Shown piece by piece: positions 1-45,089 of a stretch of DNA of 45,089 bases; within the stretch, counting starts at the first letter, position 1; the number at the start of each line of letters is the position of its first letter. Source of the stretch: a virus. The stretch covers positions 1-45,089 of the IMG/VR virus record IMGVR_UViG_3300010401_000015. One strand, 5' to 3'. The notes below the pieces were generated by a model that was not told the DNA's origin, made no database searches, and saw nothing but the letters and a program-made list of their open reading frames with translations. The translations under genes were made by a program, and so were the position numbers.

Positions 1-123
1 GACGGCGTCCACGGCCCGCTTGACGGCCCGGAACTCGTCGTAGGTGAGGTCAGCCAGTTCCCGGTTCGCCTCCGGTACGGCCTCGTCGACGAGGTTCTTC
101 ATGTCCGCGTACAGCTGCGGATC
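1..123. repeat. 123-bp terminal redundancy, left copy
   Basis: Bases 1-123 are identical to bases 44967-45089. The long minus-strand frame is continuous through the join, because 123 is a multiple of three and both copies are read in the same phase. This shows a circular or circularly permuted molecule. A 123-base overlap is of the size left by a k-mer assembler, so it need not be a biological direct terminal repeat. Confidence 0.95.
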
Positions 124-3100
124 GTACTTCTCGAGGAACGCGAGGTAGCTCGATGCCGACTTCTCCGTCTTCCCGATGTTGACGCTCGCCAGGATGGCGC
201 GGGCGACGTTGACGTAATCCATGTCGCGCGTTTTGGAGAGCTTCTCGTCGGACTTTTGGAGCACCTTCCAGCGCTCAAGCGACGAGCCGACATCTTCCTT
301 CGCCTCGTCCGCGGCCATGAATCCGGCGTGGAATGCGGTGCTGTTCCGGCGCTGTACGAGCGCCTCGGCGTCGTCGCCCTTGATGTGCGCTTCGAGCGCG
401 GCCTTGTTCGCCCGGCGTTCGGATGCCGCATAGACCTTTGGGTTGATGGTCCGGAGAGTCTGCCGCCCGACCGCCCGCTCGGCTTCCTTACGCACGATGT
501 CGAGGCGCGGGATTCCGCCGGCCACGAGGCGCAGCATCTTGGGATCGCCACGGGCGAGAATCTGCATCTCAAGGAGCATCTGCTCGGCGCGGGCGTCGTT
601 GTGGATGGAGGCGAGGGCGTACTCCTTGAAATCCGCCTCGGTCGGCTCGCCGCCGTACTCGGCGAGCATCCGCTCCTCGGTCAGGCGGTCGATCTTGTTC
701 TTACGCTCCTCCATGCCCTGGAGGGCGTTCAGGAGCGCCCGGCCATCCTCGAACCTGAACATCCCGGCCGCGATGTCGATGTGCGTCCCGCCTTCGGCGG
801 TCGTGATGGCGCGCGGGAGCATGCTCGGCTTGATCTCGACAGGCAGGGAGTCGCGGTCGATCTTGAGGGCGGGGGTCAGCAGCTTCACGCCCGCGGGAGT
901 CTCGTTCTTCTGGAGGACGGACACCGCGCGGTAGATCGGCTCCTTGTTGACGTCTTCCTCGACCTCGGCGCGGGTCTTGGCCTTCGCGTCCTTGTACCAC
1001 TCCATCTGTTCGCGGCGGGCCTGCTCCATGCCCTTCTGAAGGAGCTTTTCCTCGGCGATCTGCTTCGCCTTGAGCGTGAGTTCCGCGTACCGCTGGGCCT
1101 GCTCGTCGGTGGCGCCGGCCGACTTGGCATCCTCAAAGAGAGGTGCCTGCGCCTGATCGAACTGCGCCTGAAGGATCTCCTCGTCGGTGGCGAGGAGGCG
1201 GTCCATGACCTTGCGGATGTCGGCGTTCAGTTCGACGCCGAGGGCTTCCTTGGCGCCCTGGTAGATGTCCGTCAGCCATTCCTTGAACCGGTAGAACACG
1301 CCTCGCAGCTTCTTGGACGGGGCGTTGCCCTCGAGCAGGTACTTCTCGAACGACCTCGCCCATTGCTCGTGATTGTCCTTGGAAATCTTCTCGCCTTCCT
1401 TGCGGCCGAGCCAGTCGAGGACGGTCTTCCAGTCGGCTTTGATCTGATCGGATGCGCCCTCACGCGTGGCGAGCCGCTCCAGCAGGTCGAGGTACAGGTG
1501 GCCCGTCTCGTGCAGGAACGTGGAGGAATCGGCCTCCTTGAACAGGTCTATGTTGACCGCAACGTCGCCCAGGCGGATCCGGCCGCGCGGCTTGCCCGCC
1601 TCGCCCGGCTGCTCGTGGCCGAAGGCTCGCTCGAAAACGGCCATCACCTTTTCGACGGTCGGATTCTTGACCTCCACGCTGTCGTGCATGCTTCCGGAGG
1701 AACTCTCGTTGCTGACGTCAACGTTGATGGGATCGCCAGGGAACTCCCGCTTGTAGTCCTTAAGGATCTTCGCGATCTGCTCGACTGTCGGCATGAAGTT
1801 CGCGCTGATTCCAAGGCCGCTCATGTACCTTACGGCACCTGCGGCTTTCTGGAACTTCAGCATTACGTCGGTAGCGGTTCCCTCGTAGATTTCTCCGTGG
1901 GTCGGATCCTTGCCGCCGACACCAACCGCGTCTCTGATCTTCGCGCCGAGTTCGCGATGGTCGATCACCCTGTGGCCGGCCAGGTAGTCCCCGGCCTGCC
2001 CAGGAAGGGCGACGTATCTATCGCCGGACTTCTCATAGCCTACTGCCTGATGCCGACCGGAGAGGTCAAGGTATGTGCCGTCCGGAAGAACGTACCCGGC
2101 CTCATTGAGGTTGTTGGTGACGCCGAACTGCTCCTTCGCCACGTTGCCGAGGTTCTCGTCGTAACCGTAGGAAACCTTCTTTCGCCTGGGCTGCTCGAAC
2201 ACCTGTCCCTCGGCGGTGACGGGAATCTCCCCGCGCCGCTCGACCGTCAGGGGACGCTCGCTGAACAGCTGGTAGGGGTCGACGTTCTCGCGCTGCCCGA
2301 GGGTCTGAAACGTGGCCGAGACGTACTTCGCGACCGCCGCAGCCTCCTTCTTGAACCCAGCGGATTCGAGCGCGGCCTTGATCTCGTCGGACACCTTCTG
2401 GACGGACGCTACGACCTGCTTATGCTTCGCGCGGGCGGCGATGGCTTCCTCGAGCTTCCGGTCCTGCTCGGCCTCGGCGAGGTTCGAGCGGATGGCCTTC
2501 TGGAATTCCTGGTCGGTGACGGCGTCGATGATGTGCGCCGGGATCTCGTCGCTCATGACGGCCGACGACGCCTTCTCGCGGGCCTGATCCGCACGCTTGA
2601 TCTGGTCGACGAGTTCCTCAGGGTTCATGCCGTATTTCGCCGCGACCTCGTCGATGGGGGCCGCGTAGGCTCGGCCTTCCTTGTCGACGCGCCGCATGTC
2701 GGCGATCATGTTCTTCGGGATACCGCTCGTGGTGAGTTCCTCGGCTTGCTGCCCGGCCTCGTTCAGCCAGTAGATCTTCCCGCCGAAATCGTGCTCCACT
2801 TGACTGATGATGTCTGACCGCTTGAGTTCCGCGAGCGTGGCGTTCGCTTCGCGCTTCGCGACCCGCTTGGCGATCGGCAGGATGACCTGATCGGAGAGCG
2901 ATTCGGCCGCCTTCTGCTCGGCCTGGGACCGCGCCTCCTCCATGAGCCTTTCCGTCTCGCTGACGGTCATGTCCATGGGGTCGCGCCGGATCTCCCCCTG
3001 CATGAAGGTCTTCTCTTCGGGGGACATCGTCAGGTATTTCTCGGTCGGGATCTGGATGTCGCCGTTCTTTTCGACGGCCTCCGCGAAGCCCTCGGCGTTG

Positions 3101-4809
3101 CCCCTCAGTTCGGCGATCCGCTGCGCCGGGTCGACGCCCGCCTTCTGGTAGAACTCAGCGAGGGGCGCGGCGGCCACCGTGACGTAGGGTAGGCCGATGC
3201 GGTCGACGACGGCCTTCGCGATGCGCTCCGACTCCTCGGGGTTCGTGGCTGCCAGCTTCACCTGATCATGCAGCTTGGCGATCTTGCCGAGCGTCTCCTG
3301 GGTGTGCTTGGCCTGACGAATCTGGTGGACCTCCGTCGCCGCGTGCATGCCTGGGCCCGCGCCGCCGAGCAGTATCATCGCGCGCATCGTCTCCGAGAAG
3401 ATCCCGATCAGCCGTTCCATGATCTCGCCCGGGGTCGCCTTTTCGAACTGCCCGGAGGACGCCATCTTGGAGAGTTCCTCGGCGACGACGTTGACGCCCT
3501 CCTGCATGACCTCGGTGACAGACTCGCCGAGCGTGGACCCAGCGTATTCCTTGCCCATCTCCAGCAGGACACGGGCCATCGTTGGCTTTGCGACCACGTC
3601 CTTGATGCCTTCAACGAACATGCGCTTCGCCGCGGCCTTGAACGGCGCGGTGAATAGCTTGACCCCCACCACCTCGAGAGCGGCGTTCAGGACACCAACG
3701 GTGACCGCGGCGCTACGCTTGACGCCCTCGTCCAGCTGCTCGCCGTTCTTCCCGCGGATCTGGTCGAGTTCAACGTAGGCGTTTCCACCCTCCGTGATGA
3801 ACGACTGCTCGGCCATGCCGAACATCATCCCGGTCCCGAACCCGCCAGCGAATCCAGCCGGCACGGTGATGGGGGCGGCCGGACCGCCAGCCACGCCGAG
3901 TCCAGCGCCGAAGATTGCGCCCTCGGCCCCGCGCTCAAGGGCCTTGTCCGCGGTGTCGACCATCTGGGCGACGAGCTTCGATGTCGGGTAGAGCCACCGA
4001 GAGGCGAAGTCATCGCCCTGCGGGGTCTGCTCCATGCGCTTCTGCGTGTCGGCGATGGCCGCCTTGAGTTCTGGGCTGTCGTTGCCGAAGACGCGCTGCA
4101 TGCCGAGACGCCCAAGGACGTTGGTCCCGACGCCAGCCTCGGCTCCCGTGCTGAGAGCCTCCCCGGCTCGCTCGAGGAAGGACGTCCGTGACGTGTCTCC
4201 CTGAAGGAATGCTTCACGGCGGCGCGCGGCGCCTACCGCCGCCGAGGTGTAGGACTTCTCCATCTCGTCGAGCGTCCGCTTCGGCGGCGGGCCGTAGGTG
4301 AACGCCCCAGGAGCGGAGAAGAACGGCCCGGAGTCCTGCTTCGCAAAGTCCTCGGCTGCTTGCTTACGGGCCGCCGGACCATGGATAGCCTCGAGTTCCT
4401 GATCCGTCGAGGGGCGGAACTTTGGGGCGGCGAGCTCGCCGAGCGCCCTCTCGATCTCTGCCATGCGAGAGAGATCGTCCTTCCCGGCGGCCCGGCGGTA
4501 AGGGTCGGTCGCCCAATCTGCGGTCGCCGGCGCTGTCTTGCGGAGTTCCTCGAGCTGGCCCGGCGTCATCTGGTCCTGGGCCGCTCTGGTACCGGGGATG
4601 TCGCGGAAGACCGTGTCGATCGGAAGCCCGCTGCGGATTGATAGCTGTAGCGCCTCGGCCGCCTGCGCGGGCGGGATCTTGCTGGCGAGGTGCTCGGAGG
4701 CGTTCAGGCGCTGCTGTTGGCGGGTTTCCGCGTCACGGAGGAACGCCGAGTACGGCCCCTCGTCCTGCGACTCGGCCGGCTCGAGAGGGTCCGCGTTACT
4801 TTCCAGCAT
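1..4809 (-). CDS. Giant internal virion / DNA-ejection (polyvalent) protein, N-terminal 1,603 residues
   Basis: This is the first part of a 2,344-residue protein that crosses the circular join and ends at 42741. The ATG at 4809 overlaps the end of the previous gene by 14 bases. The position, last of the gp14-, gp15- and gp16-like internal proteins, and the size match podophage ejection proteins. A zinc-peptidase motif HETGH lies at residues 1100-1104, followed about 55 residues later by a conserved-looking WARSFEKYLLEG segment that could supply a third ligand (gluzincin-like). A Gly/Ala-rich hydrophobic stretch near residues 265-305 may contact membrane, and long Glu/Lys/Ala-rich helical segments follow. 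I saw no lytic transglycosylase motif. Ejection role and peptidase are inferred from context and motif. Confidence 0.85.
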   Translation of the reverse strand, partial: MLESNADPLEPAESQDEGPYSAFLRDAETRQQQRLNASEHLASKIPPAQAAEALQLSIRSGLPIDTVFRDIPGTRAAQDQMTPGQLEELRKTAPATADWATDPYRRAAGKDDLSRMAEIERALGELAAPKFRPSTDQELEAIHGPAARKQAAEDFAKQDSGPFFSAPGAFTYGPPPKRTLDEMEKSYTSAAVGAARRREAFLQGDTSRTSFLERAGEALSTGAEAGVGTNVLGRLGMQRVFGNDSPELKAAIADTQKRMEQTPQGDDFASRWLYPTSKLVAQMVDTADKALERGAEGAIFGAGLGVAGGPAAPITVPAGFAGGFGTGMMFGMAEQSFITEGGNAYVELDQIRGKNGEQLDEGVKRSAAVTVGVLNAALEVVGVKLFTAPFKAAAKRMFVEGIKDVVAKPTMARVLLEMGKEYAGSTLGESVTEVMQEGVNVVAEELSKMASSGQFEKATPGEIMERLIGIFSETMRAMILLGGAGPGMHAATEVHQIRQAKHTQETLGKIAKLHDQVKLAATNPEESERIAKAVVDRIGLPYVTVAAAPLAEFYQKAGVDPAQRIAELRGNAEGFAEAVEKNGDIQIPTEKYLTMSPEEKTFMQGEIRRDPMDMTVSETERLMEEARSQAEQKAAESLSDQVILPIAKRVAKREANATLAELKRSDIISQVEHDFGGKIYWLNEAGQQAEELTTSGIPKNMIADMRRVDKEGRAYAAPIDEVAAKYGMNPEELVDQIKRADQAREKASSAVMSDEIPAHIIDAVTDQEFQKAIRSNLAEAEQDRKLEEAIAARAKHKQVVASVQKVSDEIKAALESAGFKKEAAAVAKYVSATFQTLGQRENVDPYQLFSERPLTVERRGEIPVTAEGQVFEQPRRKKVSYGYDENLGNVAKEQFGVTNNLNEAGYVLPDGTYLDLSGRHQAVGYEKSGDRYVALPGQAGDYLAGHRVIDHRELGAKIRDAVGVGGKDPTHGEIYEGTATDVMLKFQKAAGAVRYMSGLGISANFMPTVEQIAKILKDYKREFPGDPINVDVSNESSSGSMHDSVEVKNPTVEKVMAVFERAFGHEQPGEAGKPRGRIRLGDVAVNIDLFKEADSSTFLHETGHLYLDLLERLATREGASDQIKADWKTVLDWLGRKEGEKISKDNHEQWARSFEKYLLEGNAPSKKLRGVFYRFKEWLTDIYQGAKEALGVELNADIRKVMDRLLATDEEILQAQFDQAQAPLFEDAKSAGATDEQAQRYAELTLKAKQIAEEKLLQKGMEQARREQMEWYKDAKAKTRAEVEEDVNKEPIYRAVSVLQKNETPAGVKLLTPALKIDRDSLPVEIKPSMLPRAITTAEGGTHIDIAAGMFRFEDGRALLNALQGMEERKNKIDRLTEERMLAEYGGEPTEADFKEYALASIHNDARAEQMLLEMQILARGDPKMLRLVAGGIPRLDIVRKEAERAVGRQTLRTINPKVYAASERRANKAALEAHIKGDDAEALVQRRNSTAFHAGFMAADEAKEDVGSSLERWKVLQKSDEKLSKTRDMDYVNVARAILASVNIGKTEKSASSYLAFLEKYDPQLYADMKNLVDEAVPEANRELADLTYDEFRAVKRAVDAV

Positions 4810-20735: not shown

Positions 20736-22090
20736 GGCGACTCCCACTCTGCGGTCGGCGGCTGATGCGCCATCTGACCGCGTTCGTTGACCTCGTAGAA
20801 ACGCCCCTTCGCCTTGTCGAACATCAGGTCGACCTCGAAGCACTGGCCCATCCGGTGCTTGGCGACCGAAAGCACACGCGGCTCGACGATCTTGAACTCG
20901 TCGCCGCGCTCCTTGCGCCACAGGAACACCACGTTGTCGGCGTCCTGCTCGATGTTGCCGCTGTCCCGCAGGTCTGCCAGGCGCGGCCGATCACACTCCG
21001 ACGCGCCGCCACGCTTCTCGACCTCCCGGTTCAGCTGCGCGAGCAGGATGATCGGCACCTGACGCTCGAGGGCCACCTGCTTTAGCAGCCGCGTCGTCGC
21101 GCCCACGGCCAGGTCGTTGCGCTCTGATTTGTCATGCCGCATGAGCCCGAGGTAGTCGATGAACACGGCGGCGATGCGCCGGCCGCGCGCCTGCGTCTGC
21201 GTGATCGCGAGGGAGACGTCCAGCGCCGAGATCGCGGTGCGCTGGTTGACGGCGATGGTGTCGAACACCGGCGATGCGCTTGCGAGGATGACCCGCTCGA
21301 TGTCTTCCGGCGTGACCTTGTTGCGCGAGTAGTTCCAGTACGGTACCTCCGCGAGTTCGCACGCGAGTTGACGGGTCAAGACCTCCGGCGTGACCTCGAG
21401 CGAGAAGACCAGCGCGTCCCCCGCCGTCGCCGCGTTCACCGCCATCTGCCGCATGAGCGAGGATTTGCCGATGCTGGGCCGTGCGGCTACGATCGTCACC
21501 TCTCCCGCCGCGAACAGGTTGATGTTCCCGTCGATCTTGCCGATCCGCGTGACCGTGGGCATCGGTTCCGCCCCGCGGGCCTGTAGTGCGGAGTTCGCGA
21601 TTTGGCTGAGGTACACCAGCGCGTCGTTCCCCTGCGCCTCGCCAACCGCCTCGATCGCGCGGTTGATCAGGTGCATGGCGTTGAACTGTTCTCCGGTCGG
21701 CGACTCGGCGATCTGCTTCCTGAGGGTGTCCATTACCGACGAGAGCGTTCGACGCTGCCACAGGTCTCGGACGGTCTTCGCGTATTCCGGGGCGCTCGCA
21801 GCGTTCGGGAGCTCGGCCACCAGCGAGAGGAGGTAATCGGCGCCGCCAGACGCCTTGAGCGCGTCGGTCTTCCGGAGTTCCTCCAGCACGATGACCAGGT
21901 CGACCTTTGCGCCCCTTGCGTGCACGGACAGGATCGCGTCGAAAATCAGCTGGTTCGCAGGGAAGAAGAACATACCGCGCTTCATCCCGATCGCCGTCTC
22001 CGCGATCTGCTCCCCGTCGAAGAGCAGCGACCCGAGGTACGCCATCTCGGACTCTTTGGAAACCAGCGGATTAGATTTTTTGGGGTCCAC
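20732..22090 (-). CDS. dnaB: Replicative DNA helicase, DnaB family
   Basis: A 452-residue helicase. The GTG start at 22090 is preceded by AAAGGAGGG at 6 bases. An N-terminal domain (SEMAYLGSLLFDGEQI) is followed by a RecA-like core with Walker A ARPSIGKSS (203-211), Walker B VFIDYLGLM (Asp312), the LAQLNREVEKR motif (350-360) and the DLRDSGNIEQDAD motif (373-385). It unwinds the fork and recruits host primase and polymerase. The gene follows the initiator gene with a 20-base overlap, a standard phage replication pair. Confidence 0.93.
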   Translation of the reverse strand: MDPKKSNPLVSKESEMAYLGSLLFDGEQIAETAIGMKRGMFFFPANQLIFDAILSVHARGAKVDLVIVLEELRKTDALKASGGADYLLSLVAELPNAASAPEYAKTVRDLWQRRTLSSVMDTLRKQIAESPTGEQFNAMHLINRAIEAVGEAQGNDALVYLSQIANSALQARGAEPMPTVTRIGKIDGNINLFAAGEVTIVAARPSIGKSSLMRQMAVNAATAGDALVFSLEVTPEVLTRQLACELAEVPYWNYSRNKVTPEDIERVILASASPVFDTIAVNQRTAISALDVSLAITQTQARGRRIAAVFIDYLGLMRHDKSERNDLAVGATTRLLKQVALERQVPIILLAQLNREVEKRGGASECDRPRLADLRDSGNIEQDADNVVFLWRKERGDEFKIVEPRVLSVAKHRMGQCFEVDLMFDKAKGRFYEVNERGQMAHQPPTAEWESP

Positions 22091-22802
22091 TTGCGTCCCT
22101 CCTTTCCTTGAAAAGTTCGTCGGTGATTTGCTTGCCGCTGATGGAGAAGTGCTGTCGGCTGATGTCGAGTACATCCCAGCCCTTGACCTTGCCGCCCATG
22201 AGGAGTTCCTGCACGAACGGGAACCCCTTCTGAGCGTGCCAGCCCTCGATCTGGGCTTTGAGTTGGCGGTATCCAGTCGCCCGGAGCTTCTGTCGGCGGG
22301 CCTCCTCGAGAAGCATCCCGAGCGGGGAAGAGGGGAGCCAGTCCGCGCGGCTGTCTTCTCCGTTCTCCGGGGGCGCGTCCCCTTTGGATACGGAACCGGA
22401 TACGGAGAGGGATACGGGGGTCGCTTTTTCGCGCGGAGACTCCACGGATTCTCCGCGGAGACTCCGCGCCTCATAGGCGCGCTTTTTCCGCGCCCGCTCA
22501 CTGATGATCTTCTCGATGAATTTCCCCTGATGTTCTTGCCACTCATGGACTTGCGCGCCGTCGACCCATCCGGACTTACGGAGCGCAGAGACGAACTTCG
22601 TCGCCGATCCTCGCCAGCGGCAGGCTTGCGCTATCTCTGACGTGGACATGTCCTCGAGCGAGCCGCTCGCCCGGAACTCGGCCGTTACTGACCAGAGTCG
22701 AACGAGGTACCCGGCCGCTTCGGGCGAGTTCCTCTTGAGCAGCTCGGCCAGCCTGAAGAGTTTTGGGTTGTCCCACAGGTTCCAATCGACAAGGACTTTC
22801 AT
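22071..22802 (-). CDS. Replication initiator / helicase-loader-like protein
   Basis: A 243-residue protein. The N-terminal 110 residues (VDWNLWDNPKLFRLAELL, then SEIAQACRWRGSATKFVSALRKSGW) form a winged-helix DNA-binding domain like those of phage replisome organisers. A Ser/Val-rich linker follows, then a C-terminal helical domain likely to contact DnaB. The linker is encoded by three iterons with a 12-bp period, as in lambda O and similar initiators whose gene contains the origin. It overlaps the helicase gene by 20 bases. Confidence 0.75.
   Translation of the reverse strand: MKVLVDWNLWDNPKLFRLAELLKRNSPEAAGYLVRLWSVTAEFRASGSLEDMSTSEIAQACRWRGSATKFVSALRKSGWVDGAQVHEWQEHQGKFIEKIISERARKKRAYEARSLRGESVESPREKATPVSLSVSGSVSKGDAPPENGEDSRADWLPSSPLGMLLEEARRQKLRATGYRQLKAQIEGWHAQKGFPFVQELLMGGKVKGWDVLDISRQHFSISGKQITDELFKERRDASGPQKI
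22386..22417. repeat. Three GGATACGG iterons, candidate replication origin
   Basis: GGATACGG occurs at 22386-22393, 22398-22405 and 22410-22417, exactly 12 bp apart. Next to them, CGCGGAGACTCC occurs twice (22432-22443 and 22454-22465), the second within the palindrome CTCCGCGGAG (22451-22460). The cluster lies inside the initiator gene, the classical place of a lambdoid origin. Repeats are seen directly; the origin role is inferred. Confidence 0.6.
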
Positions 22803-22815
22803 AGCTTCCCTCTCC

Positions 22816-23097
22816 CTACTCGTCGCCGTCTTCTTGGGCCGCATCCAGGACATGGAACTGACTTTGGAGCGAGCCACTCGCACTTGCACCAGCACTTCCG
22901 CCAAGCCCAGCCGGTATGAGGTCCACCGTGAAACCATGCTGCCTGTCGATCCTGCGGAGGAACGGCCGGCCGATCAGAACGTGGACGGCCCGCATCCACA
23001 GGAAGAGCGCGAGGTTTTCGCTGACGTACGCGACCGCCAGCCTGTCGCTCAATGGCGGCGCGTTGCGCAGGCGTGAGATGACGCTTGATCTCCTCAT
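22816..23097 (-). CDS. Hypothetical protein; overlaps an alternative frame
   Basis: A 93-residue frame with high third-position GC, like its neighbours: MRRSSVISRLRNAPP at the start, a hydrophobic centre (LALFLWMRAVHVLIG) and an acidic end. A competing frame, 22799-23104, has a better placed Shine-Dalgarno (GGAAGGAG, 4 bases) and an ATGA junction with the next gene. It begins MRYEEIKRHLTPAQRA and ends with a CxCxC and CPGC cluster, but its codon use is flat. Only one is likely to be the main product. Confidence 0.45.
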   Translation of the reverse strand: MRRSSVISRLRNAPPLSDRLAVAYVSENLALFLWMRAVHVLIGRPFLRRIDRQHGFTVDLIPAGLGGSAGASASGSLQSQFHVLDAAQEDGDE

Positions 23098-29164: not shown

Positions 29165-29728
29165 CTAAGCAATTTCACGATTCAACTTGGGGCGACCCTT
29201 CTTCTTGTGGCCTCGGGCCAACCTCGCCGCCTTCTGGTCGGCCAACAGTTTCGTGTAGCACGCTTTGCACCGCCGGTTGACGTACCCCGTTGGCCGGATA
29301 TACAGGGCGATGTTATCCTCGGTCAGTTCGTGCCCCTGCTTGCAGACCCTCTTCCACGCCCGCTTCTTGTTCTCGGCGTGGGTGACGGGCTCAAGGTGCG
29401 CCGGCCGCACGCAACGACGAACGCGGCAGAGGTGATCCAGCTCCATGCCGTCCGGAACAGGCTTCCCATTGGCCCACATCCAGGCGATGCGATGGGCGCG
29501 GCGCTCACCCTTGCCGTACCCGAACTGGCCGTAGCCGTTCCGGTAGAGGACTCCAGTCCACAGCCAGCATTCCACGGACTTGTCCACCTTGCTCCAGAAG
29601 CGGACCTCCTTAGAGGCGTCGTATGGGAGGTATGGGCGCTTCCGCCCGCAGGCGGGGCAGCGGACCTTCCCGCCGCCCTTGTTCTGGCAGGAGGCGCAGT
29701 CCTTGAAGCCCCGGTGTTTCATCTGCAC
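29165..29728 (-). CDS. HNH homing-type endonuclease
   Basis: A 187-residue nuclease. An N-terminal zinc ribbon (Cys11, Cys14, Cys24, Cys27) precedes an HNH_3-type core: RFWSKVD and CWLWTG (residues 43-58), HRIAW (79-83), LDHLC (97-101), and HLEPVTHAEN (111-120), supplying the His-Asn-His metal site. A C-terminal zinc motif (CKQGH ... CKAC) follows. Such free-standing enzymes cut DNA and spread between phages, or help packaging when beside terminase. This one is far from terminase, so a selfish role is likelier. GTG start at 29728; ATG at 29722 possible. Confidence 0.85.
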   Translation of the reverse strand: MQMKHRGFKDCASCQNKGGGKVRCPACGRKRPYLPYDASKEVRFWSKVDKSVECWLWTGVLYRNGYGQFGYGKGERRAHRIAWMWANGKPVPDGMELDHLCRVRRCVRPAHLEPVTHAENKKRAWKRVCKQGHELTEDNIALYIRPTGYVNRRCKACYTKLLADQKAARLARGHKKKGRPKLNREIA

Positions 29729-29744
29729 AGGTAACAGTCCTCCT

Positions 29745-29900
29745 TTAGACCTTCACCGAATGATTGGCGCAGCACTCGCTTGGCTCATGTGGCGAGTCCT
29801 CGTTACACTCCCCGCAACGCGGGCAGGCCGTTTCGGCGGCTCACCCCTCCCAGGAGTTGCCGCACTTCTTGCACCGGAAATCCAGCCACGGATAAGACAT
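29745..29900 (-). pseudogene. Zinc-ribbon gene interrupted by an in-frame TGA
   Basis: From ATG 29900 the frame reads MSYPWLDFRCKKCGNSWEG, then TGA at 29841-29843, then continues in the same frame with AAETACPRCGECNEDSP to TAA at 29745. The first CxxC pair lies before the stop and the second after it, so they look like halves of one 51-residue zinc ribbon. TGA is an ordinary stop elsewhere in this genome. A nonsense mutation, a base error or stop readthrough could explain it. Confidence 0.6.
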
Positions 29901-29914
29901 AGGTCACTCCTTGC

Positions 29915-30142
29915 CTACAGTCCAAGCTCTTTCTTGCGCTGCTCGATGACAGCCGCCCCGTTCCGCTTGATGCAGTCGAGGTCGTAGCGGAGAGTTGCAT
30001 CTTCTGGGCGCAGTTGGTCGAGACACTGGCGAACGCGCTCTTCCGTGGTGATCGGGAAGGGCGGCGGATAGGCCCCGTTGATCGCATCAACGGCGTACTG
30101 CATGATCTCTTCCCGCGTCGGCTTGTCCCATTCGTTGTTCAT
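29915..30142 (-). CDS. First gene of the early operon, hypothetical
   Basis: A 75-residue protein, MNNEWDKPTREEIMQYAVDA at the start, with a C-terminal charged helix AVIEQRKKELGL. GAAAGGA lies 9 bases ahead. It is the first gene downstream of the leftward promoter that is interleaved with operators, so it is probably an immediate-early product. Not recognised. Confidence 0.65.
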   Translation of the reverse strand: MNNEWDKPTREEIMQYAVDAINGAYPPPFPITTEERVRQCLDQLRPEDATLRYDLDCIKRNGAAVIEQRKKELGL

Positions 30143-30172
30143 CTGTCTCATTCCTTTCTGCTCTACTCTGAA

Positions 30173-30229
30173 CTAATGGCATTATGCCTAATGGCATTAG
30201 GAATGTCAAATAAAATCTAATGGCATTTG
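30173..30229. promoter_or_regulatory. Three operators with core TAATGGCATTA
   Basis: TAATGGCATTA at 30174-30184, the same at 30189-30199 (within the palindrome CCTAATGGCATTAGG, 30187-30201), and TAATGGCATTT at 30218-30228. Centres are 15 and 29 bp apart. Copy 1 overlaps the leftward -10, copy 2 fills the leftward spacer, and copy 3 overlaps the rightward -35. The arrangement indicates binding by a dimeric repressor. Confidence 0.75.
30181..30209 (-). promoter_or_regulatory. Leftward early promoter, TTGACA-17-CATAAT
   Basis: On the minus strand TTGACA (30209-30204), a 17-base spacer and CATAAT (30186-30181) give a near-consensus sigma70 promoter about 30 bases upstream of the first early gene's leader. 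Two operators overlap it. Confidence 0.75.
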
Positions 30230-30255
30230 CAAAATAGTTTCGATCCCGCTATACT
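30227..30255 (+). promoter_or_regulatory. Rightward promoter, TTGCAA-17-TATACT
   Basis: TTGCAA (30227-30232), a 17-base spacer and TATACT (30250-30255). The predicted start of transcription is near 30262, only about 10 bases from the ATG of the zinc-finger gene. The third operator overlaps the -35. Confidence 0.7.
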
Positions 30256-30271
30256 CACAGTGGAGATGCCC

Positions 30272-30421
30272 ATGTGCAGAAACCCGAAGTGCGGGAAGAA
30301 ATTCGACTTGGTCCGTAAGTGGCCACCCCGCCACTACTGCTCCCCGGAGTGCCAGAACCGCCACGCCTTTCAGCGTTGGTACGATCGACACGTCCGGGGG
30401 CAGCAGCGCGGTAAGCATTAA
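30272..30421 (+). CDS. 49-residue zinc-finger protein, divergent from the early operon
   Basis: A 49-residue protein, MCRNPKCGKKFDLVRKWPPR at the start, then HYCSPECQNRHAFQRW. Two Cys pairs fit a treble-clef finger close to the CGNR type (Cys, Cys, Asn-Arg). It is alone on the plus strand under a promoter overlapped by an operator. It ends convergent with the integrase gene, the two stops sharing TTAA. A regulator of the switch is plausible but unproven. ATG 30266 is an alternative start; GGAG favours 30272. Confidence 0.65.
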   Translation: MCRNPKCGKKFDLVRKWPPRHYCSPECQNRHAFQRWYDRHVRGQQRGKH

Positions 30422-31200
30422 CCCCTACGATCCAGCTTGTCGAGCTGCTCCTTCACATCGACCGATGTAGCATAAGCCTGCGTCGTGACGATGCTCTCGT
30501 GGCCGAGAAGCTGCCGAACAGTCTGGATGTTCTTCGTGTCGGCGTAGAGCTTCACAGCGAAGGCATGTCTGAGCGAGTGGATCCCCCGGCCCGGTACGTA
30601 CGCCCCCGCCTGCGTGATCGTCAGCCGGAAGCGACTCTGCAAAGAACGCACGTGGAGATGGCCCCCAGCGCAGACCGGCTCATGGATTTCCTTGCTGGCG
30701 AACTCCACCCACTCCGCGACCTCATCGGGCGTCCGCTCGTGCTCCTGGGTTAAGTGGTTGGCGAAGTTCTGGATGCGATCGCACTTCTTCCGGACCTGAT
30801 CCAACCTAAGCAGGTGTCGGTTGCAATCGGGACAGTGCGTCTCTTCAAACTTCGGGCGGCGGTGGATGATGCACGGGCCGCAGGATCCAGGGAACATCCA
30901 CCCCTTCCGATCCTTGATCCACGCCGCCATGGACTCAGCCCAGCTCGGGAACACGTCAATGATCGACGGTTTCAGGACACGCTTCTTCCGTCGCGTGACC
31001 TTCAGCCTGCTTCCCGGCAGCAGGTCTTCGCACTTCAGATGCGCGATCTCACTCACGCGGAGCCCCGTCATCATCGCCGTGTGAAATGCCATGTGATACA
31101 TTTCCGGATGGTCGTTCTTCGCCACCTCGACCGTGTGCTGTACTTCCGCCTGGGACGGAATTTTCGACCAGTCAATTCCGTAGGTTGCCGTGCCTTCCAT
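30418..31200 (-). CDS. int: Tyrosine recombinase (integrase), catalytic domain with zinc-finger-like insertion
   Basis: A 260-residue recombinase from ATG 31200. Catalytic residues are Arg48 (TGLRVSEIAHL), His208 and Arg211 (HSLRH), His234 (LLGHES) and Tyr243 (TTQAYA). Between Arg48 and His208 is an insertion of roughly 90 residues with GSCGPC and HCPDCNRHLL, two Cys pairs that likely hold zinc. No N-terminal SAM-like core-binding domain is present, unless the open frame upstream to 31494 is translated (358 residues). It would integrate or resolve phage DNA. Confidence 0.85.
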   Translation of the reverse strand: MEGTATYGIDWSKIPSQAEVQHTVEVAKNDHPEMYHMAFHTAMMTGLRVSEIAHLKCEDLLPGSRLKVTRRKKRVLKPSIIDVFPSWAESMAAWIKDRKGWMFPGSCGPCIIHRRPKFEETHCPDCNRHLLRLDQVRKKCDRIQNFANHLTQEHERTPDEVAEWVEFASKEIHEPVCAGGHLHVRSLQSRFRLTITQAGAYVPGRGIHSLRHAFAVKLYADTKNIQTVRQLLGHESIVTTQAYATSVDVKEQLDKLDRRG

Positions 31201-31542
31201 GTCTAACCACCCATCTTCTAGTCCCCCAATTTCACAAAAACACACCCCCGGAGCCTCTCCTCCCAGCTCCAGGAAACAAGTCTCACCACCAACGCGCCCG
31301 GGTTCTCGCTCGGGCGCGGGTGCGGAGAGACTTGCCGTTTCCACCCAATCCCCGCAATGTGAAGACTTCCAACGCCGGGTATAGAGGGGGCGAGGGCTAT
31401 CATCGCTCATGGGCTTGGCGCCCATTCCGCTACTGTCGCGCATCCCCGCCCTCTCTAAAATTCCCCGGTCGCGCCACCGTTCCACCTCTCTCACCCATCC
31501 AGCCGCCTACTGCCTCGAAGCGGTAAATCCCCCGGGAAGTGG
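31201..31542. other. 342-base interval upstream of the integrase with nested inverted repeats
   Basis: No confident gene. Two weak frames cross it on the minus strand: the upstream extension of the integrase and a 61-codon frame (31218-31403). The main content is a nested structure at 31272-31342 and a smaller ATGGGC/GCCCAT hairpin at 31409-31425. It may hold the integrase promoter, an attachment site or a small RNA. Confidence 0.4.
31272..31342. repeat. Three-tier nested inverted repeat
   Basis: GGAAAC (31272-31277) pairs with GTTTCC (31337-31342), AAGTCTC (31278-31284) with GAGACTT (31327-31333), and GCGCCCG (31294-31300) with CGGGCGC (31311-31317). Symmetric 9-base internal loops separate the last two stems, giving one 71-base hairpin with 20 perfect pairs. 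Confidence 0.7.
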
Positions 31543-31842
31543 CTACGCGCCCTCGGCGCGCCGCAGGAGCTCGCGAAACCTGCGGACCTTGGAAATCGAC
31601 AAGCGCCGCCGCTTGGCGATCGCGCTGTCGCTCAGATCATCCGGCAACATCTCGCGCATGAAGGCGACGAGGTTCGACTTGCTCGGCCTCGAGAAGTCGT
31701 AGCCCAGCGCCCGCGCCGTCTCGAACACCTTGTAGACCGTGTCCTCGTGGAACTTCGGCCCACGCTTGCGGCCGAGGATCTTGTTGACACTGGAGACGTC
31801 GACCCCGCATCGCCGCGCAATTTCCAGCTGTGTCGCGCCCAT
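31543..31842 (-). CDS. Orphan LacI-type helix-turn-helix protein
   Basis: A 99-residue protein with the N-terminal DNA-binding domain of LacI repressors: TQLEIARRCGVDVSSVNKIL as the helix-turn-helix, then a hinge-like RALGYDFSRPSKSN. No sugar-binding domain follows; instead there is a second basic helical region (SDSAIAKRRRLSISKVRRF) that could be another helix-turn-helix. GAAGGAG precedes the ATG. It is the best candidate for a phage repressor. Confidence 0.75.
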   Translation of the reverse strand: MGATQLEIARRCGVDVSSVNKILGRKRGPKFHEDTVYKVFETARALGYDFSRPSKSNLVAFMREMLPDDLSDSAIAKRRRLSISKVRRFRELLRRAEGA

Positions 31843-32993
31843 GTTCTGTTTCTCCTTCTATTTCTTGGGCATCTGTTTCCCGAACGGAACGTCATCGTCG
31901 TTGTATGGTTCTCGACCGTCGCCGCGGCGGCGGGCGCAGGCGCTTCGCCGGGCAGGTAGAGCTTTCCGCCACGGAGCGCGTACTCGGCGTTGCGGACGCA
32001 ATCGAACGCCTTAGCGATCTTCTGGTAGTCCGGCTTCCTGATGTCGGCGAGGGACTTAGCCTTGCGACCAGTAACCTTCTCGACGATGGCGCTGAAGTCC
32101 GCGTTCGAGAGTGAGAACTCCTGTAGCAGCGCCTTCATGCCGCGCATCTGGTTGTCGTCCACGAACGCGCCGCCCTGTGAACCGGCCTCGGTGTCGAACT
32201 GCGGCGCGGCAGCAACGGCCGGGAGTTCCTGCGCGAACGTCTCGATTTCCTTCGTCGTGTCTCCCGCGGGAGCAGCGTGGGCCTCAACGAACTGCCCCGG
32301 GTCGAGCTTCTCGCCGAACGTGCCAGCCTCTTCCTCACTGTAGACGGAGCCGAATTCCTTGGGGTAGCAGGAGCGGACAGCGTCCATCTCCACGCACTTC
32401 AGGAGCATCGTCTCGGGCATCTTGCCCCAGTTGAAGTTCTTGTCGTCCCTCCGCTCGCTCACGTCGAGGATCCGGATGTAAGGCTCCTTGCCGTTCCGCG
32501 AAATCTTGGCCCATGCGGCGATCATCATCCCGCGGTCCTTCTTCACGAGCGTCTTGACGACGTGCTTGACGGCACCGGATCCGAGGTCGGCGGTGAACTC
32601 GTCCTTCTCGTAGACGACGGCCGATTGGAGTCCCGCGAAGTCGGGCCGCTCCTCGAGCCGCTTCTGTACCTGGTTCTTCGAGAGACCCATGACGAGGCGC
32701 CGCTCATAGACCTGCTTCCCGTCGCGGATGACGTCGCTCCCGTAGCTATCCTTCTTCTTGGCGAACCGGACCTGGGCCCACGCTTCTTTCTTGAGGGGGT
32801 CGGCCCCGGAGGACTGGCAGTAGTGGACGTACAGCGCCGCCTCGTCCTCGTTCAGGTCCGGGCAGAGCGTCCGGCGCATGAGCTCAACCTGATCCTTGGT
32901 CATGCGCGCCGCATCGCCGGTTATGACGTCGCCTCGGCCGCCCTCGATCACGGTCAGGGCGCCGCCCTTCTTCTTGTCAGGCTTGGTTGACAT
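31632..32993 (-). CDS. bet: RecT/Bet-family single-strand annealing protein, frameshifted near its end
   Basis: A 453-codon frame from ATG 32993, preceded by AAGGAGG. The first 250 residues match phage Bet/RecT: MTKDQVELMRRTLCPDLNED, FVHYC-like VHYCQSSGADPLKKE, YERRLVMGLSKNQ, and EMDAVRSCYPKEFG. After the linker the frame runs into the next gene and gives a low-complexity Arg/Ser tail. One frame back, the text reads EPYNDDDVPFGKQMPKK and stops at 31858, just before the next ribosome site. That acidic DDDxPF end is typical, so an indel around 31915-31945 is likely. Confidence 0.85.
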   Translation of the reverse strand: MSTKPDKKKGGALTVIEGGRGDVITGDAARMTKDQVELMRRTLCPDLNEDEAALYVHYCQSSGADPLKKEAWAQVRFAKKKDSYGSDVIRDGKQVYERRLVMGLSKNQVQKRLEERPDFAGLQSAVVYEKDEFTADLGSGAVKHVVKTLVKKDRGMMIAAWAKISRNGKEPYIRILDVSERRDDKNFNWGKMPETMLLKCVEMDAVRSCYPKEFGSVYSEEEAGTFGEKLDPGQFVEAHAAPAGDTTKEIETFAQELPAVAAAPQFDTEAGSQGGAFVDDNQMRGMKALLQEFSLSNADFSAIVEKVTGRKAKSLADIRKPDYQKIAKAFDCVRNAEYALRGGKLYLPGEAPAPAAAATVENHTTTMTFRSGNRCPRNRRRNRTWARHSWKLRGDAGSTSPVSTRSSAASVGRSSTRTRSTRCSRRRGRWATTSRGRASRTSSPSCARCCRMI

Positions 32994-34703: not shown

Positions 34704-35591
34704 TTGCGCGTGCAAGGCTATTCGTCGAGCACGCTGGAGAATTACTCTCTCGCCATCGGCAGGTTCCTTGAGCACCTAGACGTCGAAGGCCGCACGCCAT
34801 TCGAGAGGAGGCGCGGCGCGCAGACCTCCGTCGACCACGGCTGTCTACTCCGCTTCCTCCAGAAAATCCGCGGTCTAGGCGTGAAAGAGACCACCCTCCA
34901 GGGCCATAAGTCCGCGATCTCCAGCTGGTACGAATGGTTGATCCGCTGCGGCCACGTCGACCGCAACCCGATCGACATGCTCGCGCCCATCAAGACGCAG
35001 GAGGTCAATCCAGATCCGCTCCCGGTCGAGGACACGCTGAAGATTCTCGCTGAGGTGCGGCTGATGAATTGGCGGAATCTTGAGCGGAACCGCGCAGTCC
35101 TCGAGCTGTTCTACGCCAGCGGAATCCGCCTGAACGAGCTTCGGATGCTCGATGCGTCGGACATGGTCCTGAACGACCGCCGACCGCATTGCGTCATCCG
35201 CTATGGCAAGGGCAAGCAGCAGGGCATCGGGCGCCTGACGCCGGAAGCTGTCGACGCCGTCAAGGCGTGGCTGCCGAAGCGCTCCGGTATCCTCCGGAAA
35301 TGGGAGAAGCCCGCGGAGCCCGCGCTGTTCGTCTCGCGGATCGGGGACCGCCTTGGAGAATGGCGAATCTGGAATATGGTCGTCGAGGTCGGGCAGAAGA
35401 TTCTGGGCCGGCGGATCCACCCGCACCAGTTCCGGCACTCGTTCTGCACGGACCTCCTGAACAACGGCGCTGACCTCGAGAGCATCCGCAAGCTCGCGCG
35501 CCACAAGAACCTGAACACGACCCAGAAGTATCTCGCCGTGTCCACCGCCCACCTCGACGAGGCATACGCCAAGCTGCCGCGCAGAAGATAG
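34704..35591 (+). CDS. XerC/D-like tyrosine recombinase
   Basis: A 295-residue recombinase with the two-domain plan: an N-terminal SAM-like domain (GYSSSTLENYSLAIGRFLEH, then LRFLQKI) and a catalytic domain with Arg in YASGIRLNELRML, a beta-hairpin Lys in RYGKGKQQG, HQFRHSFC (His, Arg), RHKNLNTTQKYL (His, Tyr). The frame contains no ATG or GTG upstream: TTG 34704 is used here, but in-frame coding continues upstream and CTG 34653, preceded by GGGAGG at 8 bases, would add 17 residues (AEEYLGALR included). Likely the phage integrase or resolvase; it ends at a strong hairpin. Confidence 0.88.
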   Translation: MRVQGYSSSTLENYSLAIGRFLEHLDVEGRTPFERRRGAQTSVDHGCLLRFLQKIRGLGVKETTLQGHKSAISSWYEWLIRCGHVDRNPIDMLAPIKTQEVNPDPLPVEDTLKILAEVRLMNWRNLERNRAVLELFYASGIRLNELRMLDASDMVLNDRRPHCVIRYGKGKQQGIGRLTPEAVDAVKAWLPKRSGILRKWEKPAEPALFVSRIGDRLGEWRIWNMVVEVGQKILGRRIHPHQFRHSFCTDLLNNGADLESIRKLARHKNLNTTQKYLAVSTAHLDEAYAKLPRRR

Positions 35592-37269: not shown

Positions 37270-37478
37270 AACCCGAGGGCCATCCTCATCAGCGAAAACA
37301 GCTGCGAGAGGATCGGCATCAAGCCCTCGCCGATCTTGTAGAAGGTCGCCGATTCGGCCCCCGTCGCATCCCCGCCCGTGGCTCCTAGCCACATCGAGTT
37401 CAGCTCGGCGCATCCCGTCAGGGAGAGCATCGTGATCATGAAAAAACACGCCACCGCCATCGGCCTCGCGTACTTCAT
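37266..37478 (-). CDS. Small phage lipoprotein
   Basis: A 70-residue protein with a lipoprotein signal: MKYARPMAVACFFMITMLSL then TGC, giving lipobox LTGC with Cys23. The mature peptide is short and Gly/Ala/Leu-rich (GLMPILSQLFSLMRMALGF). It follows the lipase gene in an ATGA overlap. It might be an outer-membrane lysis or exclusion factor such as a minimal spanin, but it has no partner that is clearly an inner-membrane spanin. Confidence 0.7.
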   Translation of the reverse strand: MKYARPMAVACFFMITMLSLTGCAELNSMWLGATGGDATGAESATFYKIGEGLMPILSQLFSLMRMALGF

Positions 37479-38191
37479 TGGACTGTCCCCTTTCTCCTTT
37501 GGAGTTCTGCATATCTCGTTACCGCCAACAGGTAAGCAATCATCTTGTGGTCCGTGAACGACTTGCCGCTGAGGTCTGACGTCAAGATCTTGTCCGCGAA
37601 GATGAGCCAGCGGAACAGGCCGCCGATTGGTCCAATCTCCTTGCCGTCGCTGTTCAGATGCAGCGCAGGCGAGACGTGCCGATAGCCGATCTTTGGCATC
37701 CTTGGAACGATGTCATCGGCGTGCACAACGCGGACGTGATCTATTTTGAGCGCCTCGAATGTCTCGGCGAATGCGGAGTTGCCGACGCGCGGACTGCCGA
37801 ACGTGGTGAGCGAAACCTCGTATCCGTCCTTTGCGAGTTCCGCCGCCAGGATCGTCGCGATGGCGCCGCCCAGGCTGTGACCGGTCAGGTGGATCGGCCG
37901 CATTGGGTGGGTGCGCACGAACCGGAATACCTGATGCTGGATCGCTTCGAACTCTCTTAGGAATCCTGTATGGATCCCGTCGCCGGACGCCGTTTCGGTC
38001 ATCAGAACGTCGCCGTCGATGAACGCATCACGGATGCTCGCGGTCCCGCGGATGGATATGAGCGGGCCGTAGCCGAAGCGCATGAATCCGCGGCAGAGGC
38101 CGAGGTCATCCTCTAGCGGCGTGTACTCGTCAGGCTTAGAATATGCATCAGCCGCCGCGTCTGCCAGATCGCAGATCAAGTCAGGGCTCAC
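37475..38191 (-). CDS. Class 3 lipase (alpha/beta hydrolase)
   Basis: A 238-residue enzyme of the lipase class 3 family. The nucleophile elbow is GHSLGG (Ser106), the acid is Asp160 (HADDIVPRMP), and the base is His215 (SFTDHKMIAY). FGSPRVGN (131-138) is a family hallmark, and SIRGT (47-51) supplies the oxyanion residue. No signal peptide is seen, so it would reach lipid only after membrane damage or by an unusual route. It is coupled to the lipoprotein gene by ATGA. A membrane-degrading role in lysis is inferred. Confidence 0.88.
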   Translation of the reverse strand: MSPDLICDLADAAADAYSKPDEYTPLEDDLGLCRGFMRFGYGPLISIRGTASIRDAFIDGDVLMTETASGDGIHTGFLREFEAIQHQVFRFVRTHPMRPIHLTGHSLGGAIATILAAELAKDGYEVSLTTFGSPRVGNSAFAETFEALKIDHVRVVHADDIVPRMPKIGYRHVSPALHLNSDGKEIGPIGGLFRWLIFADKILTSDLSGKSFTDHKMIAYLLAVTRYAELQRRKGTVQ

Positions 38192-42559: not shown

Positions 42560-42844
42560 ATGAGCATCTTCAGACGCGCGACCATCGCGGCAGCGGCGCT
42601 CTCCGCGCTCGGATTCTTCTCGGCGTCTACGGTGCGGGCCTTCGAAAAGGCTTCGCGTGAAGAGTGCGCTTGGCTCGCCGCTCTCGGCGTCCTCGTGCCG
42701 TGCGCGATCTTCGGAGCGTACATCGTCATCAACTGGATCATCACCGGGCGCCCTTCTTTGGAACGGACCCAGTCCCCGTCACAACCCCCCGCAGGAAATC
42801 GACAGGTCCAGACGGCGTCTTGCTCCCCTCCGCAACATTCGTAA
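42560..42844 (+). CDS. Small two-span membrane protein, partner of the lipoprotein
   Basis: A 94-residue protein with two hydrophobic segments (about residues 7-25 and 37-60: CAWLAALGVLVPCAIFGAY and on) and a polar Ser/Pro/Gln tail. It follows the lipoprotein by 4 bases. Its last 104 bases overlap the end of the giant gene on the other strand. Holin-like topology is possible; with the lipoprotein it may form an envelope pair. Confidence 0.5.
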   Translation: MSIFRRATIAAAALSALGFFSASTVRAFEKASREECAWLAALGVLVPCAIFGAYIVINWIITGRPSLERTQSPSQPPAGNRQVQTASCSPPQHS

Positions 42845-45089
42845 GGTACTTCGCGGGCTTCGCGAGCGCGCCCGTCGGAACACCGGTTAGACCGCCGAAC
42901 ACCGTCAACACGTCATCGACCGCCTTGCCCTTCGCGCCCTTGATCGGATTCCCATGCTTGTCCTCGCCGAATGTGGCATCGTAGACGTCGAACGGCGTCG
43001 AGGCGAACTGTTCCGCAAGCGACACGGCCGGCGATACGTTGATGGTGTCGTTGTGTGGGTTCTTGTCGAACTTGTTGATCATCACGTCAAGGAAGGGTCC
43101 AACGCCAGGCGCCATCGCCTTCGCCTCCTTGAACTGGGAGCCGAAGAAAAACGCCATGATGTCGTCGAGGTATCCGTCGTCGTCCGGGTCGAGATCCTGA
43201 TTCGCCATCAGCTTGTAGATCATCCCGCTGACGAGCGCAGGGATGGTGAAGCCCGTCATCGCGAGAACGGAGAGCTTCGCGGCCTTCGCTGGAAGGCCGA
43301 GTTCCTTCCGCATGATCTTGACGCCCTCGCTCCCGAGCAGGTTCGCCCGCATGTTGAACCAGCTGGTGTACATCGTGAAGAGACGGACGGCGGCGTTCCC
43401 CGCTTCGAATGAACTGACGTCCTCCGGCGCGCTGCTTCCCTGAGTCGTCCGCACGATGCTATCCGCATGCTTTACCGCCGCGGCTTCGTCCTTGCCGCTG
43501 GCGAGCGCCTCGTTGAACGCGGCCTTCCAGACCACGTCGTCGACCATGCCCTGGGTCAGCTTGGACAGGATGAAGACGTGCTTCATCGTCAGACGCTTCG
43601 CATTCTTCCAGAGCCCGGCGTCGTGCAGGACTTCGTCCGTTGCCTCCTGAAGCGACCCGACGACCTCTTGTGTGCGGTGCGCCATATAGTCGGACAGGCC
43701 AACGATTGCCTTGTGCGTCTCGAGTGGGCTCGCCATGAAGCTTCCGAGCGCCTGTACGAGATGGCCGCCGCCGACCTTCGTCGATGCGACAACGAGCCCC
43801 TCGTAGTTCTGGGCCGCGTTCACCACGTTCAAGCCGAGCTGTTTCACCCCGGCCGTCGTCTTCATCCACCGAGCGACCTTTCCGAGCCAGGACCACCCGG
43901 TCGGCATCTTCTGTTCTACGGTCTGGGTGGCGGTGCGCTGGAGCCACGGCATGATGATGCCGCTCGCCGCGGACGGGTTGAACTTCTTGAGGCGGTCGCG
44001 GAACTCGTCGTTCCACATGAGCCGCCGCAGTTCCGCGACGTGCGGCTCGATGTTGATGTATTTACCGGCCCACCGAATATGTTCCGTGACCTGGCCGACG
44101 TCCATCCGGAGCGCCTTCCAATAGCCGCTCGACCGGTTCTTCGTGCGCCCTGAGCCGGCCGTAGGGAGCGAGAAGGAGTTCCCAACCTCGGCCGCTCGCT
44201 GCTCCTCGCGGACTGCGGACTTCTCGACCTCGGCGGGGTCGGCGAGCGCGGGGAAGTAGCCGCCGCGGTATTCGGCCCAAGGCGTCGAGAACGGGGTCGC
44301 CGTGACCTCGTTGAAGTAGTACCCGTTCAGCGCCTTGTGGGTCTGTTGGAGCTGCGGCTTGATCTCCTCGAACAGATCCCATACGGATTGCACGAAATCG
44401 TAGTCGGCCTTCGTCAGCACGCCCTCGCGCTGCATCCGCTCGATGAAATGGTCCCAGCGAGACGTGTCGAGATTGCCTTCCTCGTCGAGCTTCGCCCAGC
44501 CACGGCCGAGGAGCAACTTCCAGAGGTTGCTACCGCCGTCCTCTCGGTTCCCCGTGTGGAGCAGCGCGCCGAGCAGGTCGCGCTTCCCGTTCTTGAAGGT
44601 GAAACCGAGTTCCGGCGCGTTGATCTCGTCTTTGGAGAGCTTCGGCAGTTCTCGGACGATGGCCTCGTATTTCTTCAGGTACTCATCGAGGAACACGCGA
44701 TAGGCGTCCGTCCCCTCGTGGATCTTCTCAGGGAAGACCTGCTTGAAGAAGTCGCCGATCGCTTCCGCCCAGTGCTCGACGCGAGTGAATCCCGCGCGGC
44801 CTTGGATGAGCATGCCGACGTTTTCGTCAGTCTCCGTCCGAGTCGCATTCGTCGGCTTGGCCTTCTCGATAGCGTCCATCTCCATGGTCAGCTTCGCGAT
44901 GACGTCCTTGATGTGCTCGCGCACGAGCCCGACCCGGATCTGATTCGTCTTGGTCGACATCTCGAGGACGGCGTCCACGGCCCGCTTGACGGCCCGGAAC
45001 TCGTCGTAGGTGAGGTCAGCCAGTTCCCGGTTCGCCTCCGGTACGGCCTCGTCGACGAGGTTCTTCATGTCCGCGTACAGCTGCGGATC
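42741..45089 (-). CDS. Giant internal virion / DNA-ejection protein, C-terminal part
   Basis: This is the continuation, across the circular join, of the frame that starts at 4809. Bases 44966-42741 encode residues 1604-2344, and 44967-45089 repeat bases 1-123. The C-terminal region is helical, with AVRLFTMYTSWFNMRANLL and a hydrophobic segment (LSVLAMTGFTIPALVSGMIY) followed by DLDPDDDGYLDDIMAFFFG, features I associate with the ends of phage polyvalent and ejection proteins. The last residues are basic (SVPKKGAR). Confidence 0.85.
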   Translation of the reverse strand, partial: DPQLYADMKNLVDEAVPEANRELADLTYDEFRAVKRAVDAVLEMSTKTNQIRVGLVREHIKDVIAKLTMEMDAIEKAKPTNATRTETDENVGMLIQGRAGFTRVEHWAEAIGDFFKQVFPEKIHEGTDAYRVFLDEYLKKYEAIVRELPKLSKDEINAPELGFTFKNGKRDLLGALLHTGNREDGGSNLWKLLLGRGWAKLDEEGNLDTSRWDHFIERMQREGVLTKADYDFVQSVWDLFEEIKPQLQQTHKALNGYYFNEVTATPFSTPWAEYRGGYFPALADPAEVEKSAVREEQRAAEVGNSFSLPTAGSGRTKNRSSGYWKALRMDVGQVTEHIRWAGKYINIEPHVAELRRLMWNDEFRDRLKKFNPSAASGIIMPWLQRTATQTVEQKMPTGWSWLGKVARWMKTTAGVKQLGLNVVNAAQNYEGLVVASTKVGGGHLVQALGSFMASPLETHKAIVGLSDYMAHRTQEVVGSLQEATDEVLHDAGLWKNAKRLTMKHVFILSKLTQGMVDDVVWKAAFNEALASGKDEAAAVKHADSIVRTTQGSSAPEDVSSFEAGNAAVRLFTMYTSWFNMRANLLGSEGVKIMRKELGLPAKAAKLSVLAMTGFTIPALVSGMIYKLMANQDLDPDDDGYLDDIMAFFFGSQFKEAKAMAPGVGPFLDVMINKFDKNPHNDTINVSPAVSLAEQFASTPFDVYDATFGEDKHGNPIKGAKGKAVDDVLTVFGGLTGVPTGALAKPAKYLTNVAEGSKTPSGPVDFLRGVVTGTGSVPKKGAR
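44967..45089. repeat. 123-bp terminal redundancy, right copy
   Basis: Identical to bases 1-123; see the left copy. The duplicated segment lies inside the giant ejection gene, in the same reading phase at both ends. Confidence 0.95.

Follow-up and report, generated by a model that had tools for sequence, protein, structure and literature searches.

A compact cluster of three palindromic operator-like sites between predicted divergent promoters, beside a standalone CGNR-type zinc finger, in a phage known from environmental sequence

The virus contig analysed here (45,089 bases, referred to throughout as the window) comes from a tailed phage that has been seen only in environmental sequence; the phage has epsilon15-like head genes and a terminase whose relatives in IMG/VR number 131 (best identity 61%). 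In genomes, terminase kin are found in Eisenbacteria, Solibacteraceae, Bryobacterales, and Nevskia. A 1603-aa ORF (1-4809, minus strand) is open at the left end of the record, and a 775-aa ORF (42741-45068, minus strand) starts near the right end and matches the last third of phrog_9880, a phage family of 2231 aa; the record may represent a genome that is close to complete and circularly permuted, cut inside one large gene. The locus considered below is a short intergenic gap, and the features of the gap and of its surroundings are as follows.

22071-22937, minus strand: replication initiator (phrog_9474, E 8.5e-24)
29915-30142, minus strand: gene for a 75-aa protein, first in the leftward operon, with its ATG at 30142 and AAGGA upstream; no known family
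30173-30185, plus strand: predicted operator O1, CTAATGGCATTAT, on the leftward -10 and presumed start (centre approx. -5)
30181-30209, minus strand: predicted leftward promoter, TTGACA-17-CATAAT, 11/12 matches to the sigma-70 consensus
30188-30200, plus strand: predicted operator O2, CTAATGGCATTAG, a perfect 6-1-6 palindrome in the leftward spacer (centre approx. -20)
30217-30229, plus strand: predicted operator O3, CTAATGGCATTTG, the weakest match (centre approx. -49 relative to the leftward start and approx. -39 relative to the rightward start)
30227-30255, plus strand: predicted rightward promoter, TTGCAA-17-TATACT, 9/12 matches, the weaker of the two
30272-30421, plus strand: 49-aa standalone CGNR-type treble-clef zinc finger, C-x4-C-x15-C-x3-C with CQNR
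30418-31203, minus strand: tyrosine recombinase (PF00589, E 1.3e-16; Xer-like in NCBIfam), with matches confined to the catalytic part
31543-31842, minus strand: 99-aa HTH protein (two HTH segments predicted), immediately downstream of RecT

The 75-aa gene is followed on the same strand by small genes, including one for an HNH protein, and by the genes for the replication initiator, a DnaB-like helicase (read from its translation), the terminase, and the portal. The zinc finger is the single gene on the opposite strand here and starts at the switch. Its stop codon overlaps that of the convergent tyrosine recombinase, and rightward transcription would therefore run antisense into the recombinase gene. 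A second, full-length Xer-like tyrosine recombinase (34704-35591; XerC model, E 2e-54) is encoded on the same strand as the zinc finger, and a protein with a class 3 lipase domain (PF01764, E 5.5e-28) lies at 37475-38191 on the minus strand. The RecT-like ORF (31632-32993 and 31858-32001, minus strand) continues in what appears to be a non-coding frame. In the adjacent frame, the sequence ends in EPYNDDDVPFGKQMPKK and a stop codon, resembling an acidic tail, after which come AGAAGGAGA and the start codon (ATG) of the HTH gene; a frameshift in the RecT tail, either programmed or introduced by sequencing, could account for this.

Exact copies of the motif TAATGGCATTA are located at 30174-30184 and 30189-30199, and a third copy, TAATGGCATTT at 30218-30228, differs from the motif by a single mismatch. 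When the whole window was scanned on both strands with up to two mismatches allowed, six matches were returned, which are the same three sites each counted on both strands, and none were found elsewhere; 1.65 matches were expected, and six were reached in none of 100 whole-window shuffles. In register, the three copies share CTAATGGCATT, have start-to-start distances of 15 and 29 bp, and together span 57 bp. The gap in which they lie is AT-rich (60%, compared with 27-41% in other gaps measured). This local composition does not account for the repeats, because three non-overlapping copies of any 11-mer (at most one mismatch) arose in 0 of 2000 dinucleotide shuffles of positions 30152-30271. Thus, the three repeats described in the initial annotation are indeed present, and they go beyond chance both in the window and in local shuffles. 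The motif string was found in seven papers, none of which has a title or abstract concerned with phage regulation. Judged from its sequence, the region is a real, non-random regulatory region and a compact form of a known type of phage switch. An RNA element in the gap was considered and not accepted: the single-strand fold (z -2.7) follows from the tandem palindromes. Positions 29700-31600 gave no Rfam match. Given their periodicity of roughly 14.5 bp in an AT-rich stretch, the repeats might also belong to a replication region, as iterons or as a partition site, but the replication initiator and the helicase are 7-9 kb away and no partition gene was detected among the proteins scanned, which makes this explanation very improbable.

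The promoters were called as matches to the sigma-70 consensus, which may not be that of the host; presumed starts were set seven bases past each -10, at approx. 30174 leftward and approx. 30262 rightward, and the operator centres were counted from there. The leftward promoter is the sole match of at least 10/12 on either strand of the 45-kb window. With O2 in its spacer and O1 on its -10, it has the architecture that had been ascribed to it, and the positions of sites and promoters support the description of operators clustered among the elements of two divergent promoters. The rightward promoter was likewise found as described, whereas the placement of the third operator "on its -35" proved too strong, because only the first two bases of that element (30227-30228) fall within the 11-bp core of O3. 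This position would fit either partial repression or class-II activation of the rightward promoter. Since the rightward -10 is free of operators and the third site reaches a mere 2 bp into the -35, the arrangement points to strong repression of the leftward promoter, combined with mild repression or class-II-type activation of the rightward one, and not to mutual repression by two proteins. On balance, we consider it probable that these repeats act as a cluster of operators through which a regulator encoded by the phage turns off the leftward early promoter, the zinc finger being in the position of the repressor, because the sites are far beyond chance and confined to the gap and because two of the three are placed directly on the window's only promoter of at least 10/12.

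The proximity of a recombinase gene should also be considered. The tyrosine recombinase gene ends 190-245 bp from the repeats, closely spaced repeats in the same orientation beside an integrase gene could be arm-type or excisionase sites, and in epsilon15 integrase-binding sites are annotated close to the integrase gene. However, integrase arm sites are usually asymmetric, whereas the repeats are near-perfect palindromes centred on promoter elements. Moreover, no such sites are present at the 5' end of the recombinase gene. With regard to an arm-type layout, in which the integrase N-terminus would bind sites in both arms flanking attP, one repeat cluster was seen, with no sites upstream of the recombinase. 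A role as recombination sites seems improbable.

If the repeats are operators, the next question is which protein they serve. The claim that no CI/Cro-type gene lies here is supported, as no gene in the window matched HTH_3 above the cut-off (with a positive control) and no S24 peptidase (PF00717) was found in the window (control positive in 13 of 14). Of 23 related virus contigs, several have HTH_3 matches, in some cases as divergently oriented pairs; the lack of HTH_3 here stands out among relatives, yet it is not unique. In two related contigs with divergent HTH_3 pairs (G041 and G045), no three-copy operator set was found. The missing canonical phage repressor leaves room for a host regulator, LexA-like or another, that would control the phage promoter through these sites, and it is well known that phage early promoters can be under host control. 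Nonetheless, among 396 genomes of the Solibacteraceae phylum none has the tandem pattern, and TAATGNCATTA is rare in, or missing from, the four genomes carrying terminase kin, both being weak tests; we regard such control as unlikely.

For a cluster of operators bound by a phage-encoded regulator, the lambda OR switch is an obvious comparison, and the initial annotation had spoken of lambda-like logic. This holds insofar as three similar palindromic operators lie in one gap between divergent promoters, two of them covering the strong promoter and one lying near -40 of the weaker, opposite promoter. It does not hold for the proteins, as no flanking CI/Cro genes of the HTH_3 type, no CI or Cro homologue, and no Cro-like partner were found, and nothing covers the rightward -10. 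Furthermore, the sites here are 11-13 bp long and 15 and 29 bp apart, whereas lambda OR operators are spaced approx. 23-24 bp. Epsilon15 (Uetakevirus) is a structural relative (the portal is approx. 36% identical to portals of the epsilon15 group) and has a layout of the same kind, with annotated repressor sites, three of which lie in the intergenic stretch that separates its repressor gene from the RecET operon. However, its repressor is of the HTH_3 type, whereas here a zinc finger occupies the repressor position, and its sites are of the 16-17-bp ATTACC-N5-GGTAAT type and extend over approx. 150 bp, compared with 57 bp here. The switch of S. aureus phage phi11 also has three homologous operators between two divergent genes, but both phi11 genes encode repressors (PMC3991615), and no canonical repressor is present here. 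The point of interest of the locus is this missing canonical repressor, with a standalone zinc finger in its place.

The 49-residue zinc-finger protein noted earlier on the rightward side is borne out and is of the CGNR type. Its match to zf-CGNR (PF11706; E 5.1e-5) scores 23.4 bits, just under the curated cut-off of 24, and aligns residues 2-40 with positions 5-44 of the 44-position profile, that is, with nearly the whole of it. The ORF is preceded by GGAG at 30262-30265, with a predicted mRNA leader of approx. 10 nt, and would encode 64 aa if counted from the earliest start codon. Among CGNR/ABATE proteins (PF11706, PF07336), it shares its cysteine spacing and CQNR motif with Jann_2411, the structure from which the CGNR family was named (PMC2954205). 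Jann_2411 dimerises via contacts in its ABATE domain (PMC2954205); the ORF here consists of the finger only and is too short to hold an ABATE domain. A single-sequence structure model of the protein was weak (pLDDT 69, pTM 0.36) and yielded no fold match and no usable PDB match. On the basis of the crystal structure, CGNR fingers have been proposed to bind DNA and to act in transcription regulators (PMC2954205). Because the zinc finger is located at the position of a repressor gene and its family has been proposed to bind DNA, it is the likeliest candidate for the operator binder, although we put it forward tentatively. The case is weakened because the protein is small and without a dimerisation domain and because such fingers are often nuclease parts; indeed, many phage zinc fingers of this kind belong to HNH or other enzymes. 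It is more speculative still that a standalone 49-residue CGNR finger serves as the immunity repressor of a temperate podovirus, a minimal non-HTH protein that would act on three 5-1-5 palindromes and autoregulate its own divergent promoter.

The next candidate binder, also a doubtful one, is the 99-aa protein, which had been described as a LacI-type HTH protein. The HTH assignment stands, as the best matches are to HTH_24/HTH_23 (HTH_24, E 1.2e-4), and a PHROG transcriptional repressor is also matched (1.2e-3). The LacI type is a loose label: the LacI HTH match is weak (E 0.037), the RbsR-type match (3e-4) is far below the cut-off, and the LacI hinge and periplasmic-binding-like domain are absent from a protein of only 99 aa. 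Its structure model has low confidence (mean pLDDT 68) and gave no usable PDB match. The operators might possibly belong to this protein, which would then repress the leftward promoter, the zinc finger being an accessory or a lysogeny-side product. Its HTH matches are the best in the window, it is the only match (a weak one) of the HTH_3 search, and palindromic operators of such length suit HTH dimers. However, its gene is located 1.3 kb from the operators, behind RecT, no operator-like site is present at its own promoter, neither a hinge nor a dimerisation domain is evident, and its family matches are all weak or far below the cut-off.

In the reading favoured here, the 120-bp gap would be the control region of the leftward operon, in which a DNA-binding protein, presumably as a dimer, would recognise the 5-1-5 palindrome CTAATGGCATTAG. 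Occupation of O1 and O2 would cover the -10, the start, and the spacer of the only strong promoter and thereby switch leftward transcription off. Occupation of O3 would place the protein beside the weaker rightward -35, where it could either dampen transcription or help it from a class-II-like position, and the divergent 49-aa zinc finger would thus be autoregulated. The likeliest binder in such a scheme would be the zinc finger itself, acting as a minimal early repressor. Should the zinc finger bind these sites, it would represent a class of phage repressors that does not use an HTH fold and is one of the smallest known, and a DNA target would be defined for the CGNR finger. Should the HTH protein bind them instead, the locus would be a switch of the ordinary sort, albeit a very compact one, in a virus group that has been little studied.

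The operator-cluster reading is without evolutionary support, as searches for relatives that share the motif, the zinc finger, or the HTH protein found none. In the collections searched, neither these nor the 75-aa protein had relatives, and the viral_contigs collection held none of the zinc finger, the HTH protein, the 75-aa protein, or the recombinase; it should be noted that these searches for gene relatives use exact peptide seeds and reach close relatives only. The RecT search returned distant kin only, and the recombinase search of Acidobacteriota-side genomes returned only weak homologues. Exact matches to the tandem motif in IMG/VR mostly proved to be repeats within the coding sequence of AT-rich genes, probably of the fibre type (L003, L095, and L098-L102), and were rejected. 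Among terminase-relative loci of at least 9 kb, the only other three-palindrome cluster is in L123, a distantly related virus contig, in which three TAATACTATTA-like palindromes are clustered at positions 480-517. With regard to the zinc finger, a parallel that is suggestive at most is offered by two genomes of Heliusvirales phages, which encode proteins of approx. 390 aa with a weak C-terminal CGNR match (L142:1957-3129 and L143:1951-3129). These genes are divergent to strings of small genes, from which they are separated by a gap of less than 20 bp.
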